26,623 nucleotides of DNA from a virus, in the IMG/VR virus record IMGVR_UViG_3300046010_009488, positions 1 to 26,623 of that record. The stretch is one strand, 5' to 3'. The notes beneath the pieces are model-generated. The model worked only from the letters and a program-made list of their open reading frames with translations. It was not told where the DNA came from and searched no databases. Of this stretch, positions 263-22,328 are shown piece after piece (the first letter of the stretch is position 1; each line of letters begins with the position of its first letter). Position numbers and translations under genes: made by a program.

Positions 263-715
263 TTAATGAGCTAGTAAATAAACCAAAGGAGCAATAATGA
301 TTAATGATGCTCCACCTGTTATAAATGTTGCTTTAACCCATTTATTTTTTTCATTAACGGTTTTATTTAACTCAATTTTTGTATTTTCATGGGATATATA
401 CTCAGTATTATATTTATCTTGAAAATCTTTAGCTACAGTTAATAAACTGTTATATTCATTATTTAAATGATCATAAGCTGCTCTTTCTCTTTCGATTTGT
501 AAATCAGCATCCATAGCATATTTTTCCCATTTTGCTTTTTCAAGCTTACAACCTTCAAGTTGTTTAAATTTTACTAATAATTCAATTTCTTGTTTGTTAG
601 TAAAAAATATACCAGTATCACCACTAAAGACAATACGTTTAGGGGTTAAGTGTTGACCACATGCTATCACGTTGGTCAATAGTATAATTATGGATATTAG
701 AAATGTCTTTAGCAT
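263..715 (-). CDS. Outer-membrane lipoprotein spanin candidate (o-/u-spanin-like)
   Basis: This 150-residue protein begins with a lipoprotein signal peptide: a lysine at residue 3, a hydrophobic stretch at about 5-18, and a lipobox VIAC ending at Cys19. The middle, about residues 45-125, is charged and helical and likely forms a coiled coil. The C-terminus, about residues 129-148, is a strong transmembrane helix. A lipid anchor at one end and a membrane helix at the other is the layout of unimolecular spanins such as T1 gp11, which join outer and inner membranes at lysis. The start lies inside the upstream gene (77-nt overlap in another frame), as in Rz/Rz1 pairs. The start is fixed because only it includes the signal peptide. 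The assignment is architectural, since spanins share little sequence. Confidence 0.7.
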   Translation of the reverse strand: MLKTFLISIIILLTNVIACGQHLTPKRIVFSGDTGIFFTNKQEIELLVKFKQLEGCKLEKAKWEKYAMDADLQIERERAAYDHLNNEYNSLLTVAKDFQDKYNTEYISHENTKIELNKTVNEKNKWVKATFITGGASLIIIAPLVYLLAH

Positions 716-971
716 TTTTTATTTGAATATATTGGATTTCTGTTTTAACGTTTGCTTGAGCACTGTCATAATCCTGCTTTAGTTTAGTGTATGAGTTATT
801 CAATGAATCTACAATATGACTTAAACTATCAATACTATTATCGACTGGGTGTGTTACTGGTCTTATTGGCTTGCTATGTTTTATTATAATGTGAACAAAA
901 AATGCTATAACAAAAAACCAAGGTAATATGATATACCAATTTTTTTTTATAAATTCAATTGATGTTTTCAT
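639..971 (-). CDS. Inner-membrane spanin candidate (i-spanin, Rz-like)
   Basis: The 110-residue product has a short cationic N-terminus, one transmembrane helix at about residues 11-30, and a C-terminal region of about 75 residues that is polar and helix-prone (IDSLSHIVDSLNNSYTKLKQ). This N-in/C-out topology is that of Rz-type inner-membrane spanins, whose periplasmic coiled coil contacts an outer-membrane lipoprotein. The next gene starts 77 nt before this one ends and encodes such a lipoprotein. The upstream gene ends at the base where this one begins (971). A role as another small membrane-anchored phage protein cannot be excluded. Confidence 0.65.
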   Translation of the reverse strand: MKTSIEFIKKNWYIILPWFFVIAFFVHIIIKHSKPIRPVTHPVDNSIDSLSHIVDSLNNSYTKLKQDYDSAQANVKTEIQYIQIKNAKDISNIHNYTIDQRDSMWSTLNP

Positions 972-21998: not shown

Positions 21999-22328
21999 AT
22001 GAAAAAAGTATTATTATATGGTTTAACAGTATTTTTGATCCAATCATGTACTGTTTCTGAGCATAAACCTAATTGTAATCAAGACATTACAGACTTAATT
22101 AATTATGAAGATACAATTAAAGTTGAATTTAAAGGTATTGATTCATTAGTCTTTAAAAATAAAGATTATAAACATACAGCTGATTCGTTAATGGCTAATC
22201 ATAATGATGTTTATATGAGGATTGATGTTCAAAATATTCATACAGGTTACATTCACCGAATTGTTTTTAGTAGAGAAATGGCTAGTCATTATTTATATGA
22301 TGAGGCCAATTATAAACGGGTTAGATAG
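21999..22328 (+). CDS. Lone plus-strand lipoprotein (moron-like)
   Basis: The 109-residue product starts MKKVLLYGLTVFLIQSC, a clear lipoprotein signal peptide with a lipobox ending at Cys17. It continues as a small polar protein with Cys26 and an aromatic, His-containing C-terminal half (MRIDVQNIHTGYIHRIVFSR). It is the only gene on this strand, inserted between two tail genes. It faces its right-hand neighbour tail to tail with a 2-nt gap. Phage-encoded lipoproteins expressed from their own promoter often alter the host surface or block superinfection; that is inference from architecture, and no family is recognised. The AAAGG before the ATG is too close to be a classic ribosome site. Confidence 0.75.
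   Translation: MKKVLLYGLTVFLIQSCTVSEHKPNCNQDITDLINYEDTIKVEFKGIDSLVFKNKDYKHTADSLMANHNDVYMRIDVQNIHTGYIHRIVFSREMASHYLYDEANYKRVR

Follow-up and report, generated by a model that had tools for sequence, protein, structure and literature searches.

Two overlapping genes in a 26.6-kb virus contig fragment (the window, that is, the whole stretch of DNA analysed here) raise the question of what kind of lysis pair, if any, they encode. The first-pass annotation took them for a spanin pair of blended design, in which the outer-membrane lipoprotein partner would also carry a C-terminal membrane helix, as in unimolecular spanins (u-spanins). The window contains T4-like baseplate and sigma-factor-like genes, and the closest cultured relative of its baseplate wedge protein belongs to Flavobacterium phage vB_FspM_immuto (48% identity). 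Inside the window the neighbours of the pair are virion genes and genes of unknown function, and neither an endolysin nor a holin gene is adjacent. The relevant features are as follows.

639..971, minus strand: first gene, coding for an i-spanin-like protein of 110 aa in which an N-terminal membrane helix precedes a putative periplasmic coiled-coil-like domain
882..938, minus strand: first-protein transmembrane helix, predicted at the N-terminus (about residues 12-30)
C-terminal end of the first protein: motif NAKDISNI...QRDSMWSTLNP, which closes the coiled-coil-like domain
639..715, minus strand: gene overlap, 77 nt, +1 frame, coding for the C-terminus of the first protein (Q100-P110 motif) as well as the entire signal peptide of the second
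263..715, minus strand: second gene, 150 aa, with a signal peptide, a conserved tip, a long helix, and a C-terminal membrane helix
656..715, minus strand: second-protein signal peptide (residues 1-20), with predicted signal peptidase I (SPI) cleavage at A-C-G|Q
659..661, minus strand: Cys19 codon TGT, the claimed lipobox Cys, which takes its first two bases from first-gene Met104 (ATG, bases 2-3) and its third from Trp105 (TGG, base 1)
596..652, minus strand: best-conserved stretch of the mature second protein, residues 22-40, PKRIVF.GDTGIFF, with low pLDDT at 20-27
548..550, minus strand: Cys56, the sole Cys in the mature part of the second protein; some clades have it near position 70
272..331, minus strand: C-terminal membrane helix, residues 129-148 of the second protein, continuous with the rod and preceded by the K/W-rich KNKWVK

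Both open reading frames were verified on the minus strand, and their overlap in another frame is exactly 77 nt, as first described. The same overlap of 77 nt recurs in 12 of 12 close relatives; across most clades of the wider family found by profile searches it measures 77 or 80 nt, and it is longer in relatives whose first protein bears a C-terminal extension. The family is represented here by 41 distinct N-termini of the second protein, which are related and not independent sequences. Each of these tabulated second genes has an overlapping first gene beside it (41/41), always at a frame offset of +1 (41/41). A blind scan for the architecture retrieved one pair each from the window, a 160-kb relative (G001), and phage immuto, no pair from the same sequences reversed (510 kb), and showed the design to be absent from phages B124-14, 11b, and FCL-2. 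Pfam and PHROG scans yielded nothing significant for either protein. Neither has a relative among 50,697 phage records searched by tblastn, and the first protein had none in one scan of GTDB genome contigs. A search against the sequences of solved structures returned weak coiled-coil and unrelated matches only, Foldseek gave no significant match in BFVD or PDB, and none of the open-licence papers searched describes the pair as a lysis system.

The first protein resembles an i-spanin, with an N-terminal helix and a periplasmic domain in a type II topology predicted from hydropathy. Its proposed membrane helix is borne out by a KD19 value of 2.33, and in 25 family members the N-terminal values range from 1.69 to 2.69, with less than 0.4 elsewhere. 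The expectation of coiled coils held for this protein, whose near-heptad periodicity is significant (19 of 2000 shuffles reach the same level), but not for the second (1507 of 2000), so that no proven coiled coil is claimed for the latter. The last ten residues are the best-conserved part of the first protein. The C-terminal hydrophobic helix attributed to the second protein also stands: when the mature sequence was shuffled, 7 of 5000 permutations reached its KD19 of 2.13, and the helix is kept throughout the family (KD19 1.34-2.52, below 1.6 in six of 26 relatives). The K/R-rich stretch before this helix would lie on the predicted periplasmic side, contrary to the positive-inside rule; the topology of both proteins is deduced from hydropathy and conservation. 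AlphaFold modelling of the second protein gave a poor model from 13 close relatives (pLDDT 69) and a mean pLDDT of 83.5 from 26 diverse relatives. The latter model consists of the signal helix, a poorly ordered segment at residues 20-39, and a single helix at 40-149 that includes the C-terminal membrane segment, with pLDDT mostly above 85 along the helix. The PKRIVF.GDTGIFF stretch is the probable membrane-distal tip.

Two variations touch on this anatomy. In one clade (L072, L074, L075, and L079), the second protein ends in an enlarged anchor made of two hydrophobic segments, with a basic tail (KPPKFSMKNLFFKPE) behind them. Separate SPI-type secreted proteins are encoded near the pair in L109 (1731-2342), L111 (329-952), L115 (2717-3325), and L035 (3852-4574); they share a similar N-terminal module and a conserved C-terminal domain, and in the first three the module, YPI.TI.KGDSV.IL...Q, is weakly similar to the second-protein tip (hhalign 50%).

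The signal peptide of the second protein bears most directly on the lipid anchor. The string VIAC is indeed present at Cys19, but it is not a conserved lipobox. Among the 41 N-termini, residue 19 is Cys in 18, Phe in 11, Tyr in six, Leu in five, and Val in one; the lipobox consensus [LVI][ASTVI][GAS]C is matched by seven, namely the window and six others, and eight of the N-termini that carry Cys19 have Val just before it (VTVC, ATVC). The predicted SPI site is invariant, with Gly at -1 and Gln at +1 in 41/41, and position -3 is Ala, Val, or Ser in 41/41. In Bacteroidetes, signal peptidase I cleaves before Gln (the Q-rule; PMC5837995). Judged by this pattern, Gly20|Gln21 of the second protein is a predicted SPI site obeying the Q-rule. 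The occurrence of Cys19 is explained by the overlapping first frame, which reads ATG TGG (Met-Trp) at this point: an ATG for Met104 always results in TGT in the second frame. The TGG codon of Trp105 is invariant, and Gly20 is forced by it as well. In two relatives that have Leu104 instead, a synonymous difference decides residue 19: the codon is CTG in L035, giving Cys19, and TTA in L112, giving Tyr19, and their second proteins are identical at 131 of 150 positions. Gln21 requires that first-gene codon 106 end in A. This wobble base is A in 41/41, compared with 119 of 219 comparable wobble positions elsewhere in the same genes, a comparison that is indicative as the sequences are related. This difference argues that the second frame has been selected for Gln, and that the SPI site, not Cys19, is what has been kept. 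From these sequence patterns, the lipobox appears to be a side effect of the overlapping reading frames rather than a functional lipid anchor. False lipoboxes of this kind, produced by an overlapping frame, call for caution in automated annotation.

A connection to lysis emerges from the relatives of the window. In L054, the gene order is an endolysin-like gene (phrog_33083, E 3e-17), a small two-helix membrane protein, the pair, and terL, and homologues of this small membrane protein are encoded directly upstream of the pair in L070, L072, L074, L075, and L079. In L033, L035, L036, L112, and L122, the pair is preceded by an endolysin-like gene at a distance of one to three genes, with a peptidase C92 gene directly upstream in L033, and a GH19 endolysin gene lies 4 kb upstream in L115. 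Thus, the pair has lysis-gene neighbours in several relatives, though not in the window or in G001, where an L115-type GH19 gene (88% identical) and the gene for the small membrane protein are located away from the pair. The lysis genes of T4-like phages are often unclustered. Separate o-spanin lipoproteins beside the pair appear only as sporadic candidates in a few loci. As side observations, the window encodes a small lipoprotein candidate of 109 aa (21999-22328, plus strand; FLIQSC) on the strand opposite to almost every other gene, with a weak match to phrog_34089 and a copy at 79% identity in the 160-kb relative (L060); and in the P2-like Pseudoalteromonas phage ACA1 (L222, 2459-3079), a member of the crAss-type endolysin-like family (phrog_3000/33083) is found between the tail tube and tail assembly chaperone genes, with no pair near it in the annotation.

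The same design occurs in the cultured Flavobacterium phage immuto, where the gene order is GH19, holin, a second small membrane protein, one hypothetical gene, and the pair:

immuto pair: first gene 45781-46131, second gene 46043-46444, overlap 89 nt, +1

The deposited start of the second gene (46085, TTG) drops the signal peptide, which is restored by an ATG at 46043. In IMG/VR, the family of the immuto second protein has the Q-rule site in 41/41 members and no lipobox, and the +1 overlap is found in 39/39 of those with the partner on the contig. The immuto pair resembles that of the window in gene order, +1 overlap, Q-rule site, single Cys, C-terminal helix, and alignment of the first proteins (hhalign probability 91%, E 1e-6). 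It differs in that the second proteins are only weakly alike (probability 54%, mostly in the signal peptide) and in its compact GH19/holin cassette, and it is not annotated as a lysis pair. When immuto was searched with the profiles of the window pair, the first protein was hit at E 0.0013 in a strongly composition-biased match and the second not at all; the profile-profile comparison is the better evidence for the likeness. In crAss-like phages, the order is endolysin-like gene, pair, and terL; in crAss002, cr8_1, cr271_1, cr127_1, Rudgehvirus, and ctcc615, the pair behind the endolysin-like gene is overlapping and includes a C-terminal helix. The second protein of cr127_1 combines a Q-rule site with a GDT motif. 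A review names spanins among the late genes of crAss-like phages and does not give their topology. This distribution of the design over a Flavobacterium phage and crAss-like phages, together with the Q-rule signal site, lends indirect support to the Bacteroidota-type host that had been suggested, and the uncultured phage of the pair apparently infects Bacteroidota. The relatives of the pair are metagenomic sequences, and their hosts are thus deduced.

The lysis-cassette neighbours in the relatives, and the same design near the endolysin and holin genes of immuto and the endolysin-like genes of crAss-like phages, also support the proposed spanin-type role indirectly. On balance, we consider it somewhat probable that the pair is a spanin-like two-component lysis complex of Bacteroidota phages that lacks a lipid-anchored o-spanin. 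In such a complex, the first protein would be a type II inner-membrane protein (N-in) with a helical rod in the periplasm. The second would be exported by Sec and cut by SPI at ACG|Q; its C-terminal helix would hold it in the inner membrane (N-out, C-in), and its rod, a helix of about 90 residues, would extend about 13 nm into the periplasm, bearing the PKRIVF.GDTGIFF tip. If both proteins are anchored in the inner membrane, both conserved ends would come to lie at the membrane-distal tip, and the C-terminal end of the first could meet the N-terminal tip of the second there. Cys56 would probably form a homodimer disulfide, as in two-component spanins. The joined tips might then engage the outer membrane or a partner in it, and disruption of the outer membrane would follow the removal of peptidoglycan by the endolysin. 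No outer-membrane anchor was identified for the pair.

With the overlapped two-component spanins of lambda (Rz/Rz1) and P2 (LysB/LysC; PMC6139136), the pair has in common the predicted type II first protein with its periplasmic helical domain, the overlapping second gene in another frame, the periplasmic Cys, and, in relatives, the lysis neighbours. At least one periplasmic Cys is present in 507 of 528 two-component spanin systems (Kongari et al., 2018; PMC6139136); the mature second protein has one Cys in 39 and two in 2 of the 41 distinct relatives. In contrast to o-spanins, which are outer-membrane lipoproteins with a lipobox, the second protein of the window belongs to a family in which the lipoprotein signal is not conserved, and it has an SPI-type processing site and a C-terminal membrane helix. 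With u-spanins such as T1 gp11, it shares the combination of an N-terminal export signal and a C-terminal membrane helix in one protein. However, u-spanins pair this helix with a lipobox that the window family does not conserve; all 58 surveyed u-spanins lack a periplasmic Cys, which this family conserves, and the beta-rich periplasmic domain reported for the T1 family contrasts with the one long helix predicted here. The second gene is also always accompanied by an overlapping partner gene. Because the pair thus lacks the defining feature of o-spanins and three features of u-spanins, it is filed under neither class.

Other readings have to be weighed against a spanin-like complex. Both partners are apparently anchored in the inner membrane with periplasmic domains, and a holin-like gene lies directly upstream in several relatives, so the pair might time lysis, for example as a periplasmic antiholin-type sensor complex binding the holin, rather than break the outer membrane. 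A precedent is the T4 antiholin RI, a periplasmic helical lysis protein with a cleavable signal peptide that binds the holin T (PMC8385771). However, the rod-like helical proteins, the tight gene overlap, and the one conserved Cys are more spanin-like than RI-like, and the sporadic occurrence of nearby lipoprotein genes leaves no other recurring spanin candidate. Unlike the window pair, RI is not known to have a C-terminal membrane helix or an overlapping partner. We regard a role in timing as unlikely.

The blend originally proposed, in which the second protein would be lipidated at Cys19 and reach the outer membrane while its C-terminal helix stays in the inner membrane, as an o-spanin/u-spanin hybrid beside an i-spanin, is quite unlikely for this family. 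A lipobox together with a C-terminal helix does occur elsewhere: gp49 of Flavobacterium phage 11b (L127, 28129-28593, plus strand), which adjoins a GH19 endolysin gene, joins a clear lipobox (LFSC) to a C-terminal membrane helix and is u-spanin-like, and the overlapping second protein of crAss-like cr8_1 and relatives contains LLSC, so that the second protein may be lipidated in the crAss-like phages bearing this string. In several of these crAss-like members, however, an SPI site could plausibly follow (LYA|N), and the Cys is missing from Rudgehvirus. In the window family, the fit of VIAC and six other N-termini to the published consensus is set against 34 of 41 members that mismatch it, among them relatives of 70-80% identity with VTVC or ATVC. 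A lipid signal that is unconserved even among relatives more than 70% identical, and whose Cys is accounted for by the overlapping frame, speaks against the blend, and an evolutionary intermediate with u-spanins likewise finds no support in this family. A role in the envelope other than lysis (superinfection exclusion or receptor masking, for example) would agree with the virion and unknown neighbours in the window and with a second protein that no Pfam or PHROG family covers, but it is very unlikely given that the design has been placed repeatedly and independently with endolysin genes, in the relatives, immuto, and crAss-like phages.

Searches for spanins depend on detecting the lipoprotein gene. 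Kongari et al. (PMC6139136) list Bacteroides and Croceibacter phages as spanin-less and remark in passing that inner-membrane proteins of type I could have a part in spanin systems. The conserved overlapping pair with predicted type I topology near endolysin and holin genes in part of the relatives and in a cultured phage makes the spanin question testable. A more general proposal, which we offer tentatively and with some doubt, is that Bacteroidota phages widely use a lipid-free lysis pair whose two subunits both have their anchor in the inner membrane; its tail-anchored, SPI-processed rod, with the conserved tip, would extend outwards and disrupt the outer membrane. If true, this would be a spanin route that lipobox-based searches overlook, and it could explain why some Bacteroidota phages are listed as spanin-less. 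A different kind of protein was noticed in Croceibacter phage P2559S (L129), one of the phages listed as spanin-less. An unannotated open reading frame just past the endolysin gene (27508-28065, plus strand) overlaps gp29 by 167 nt and encodes a Q-rule signal site, a helical middle part, and C-terminal strands ending in GRLSFAIW that resemble outer-membrane beta strands; it is a possible OMP-type partner.
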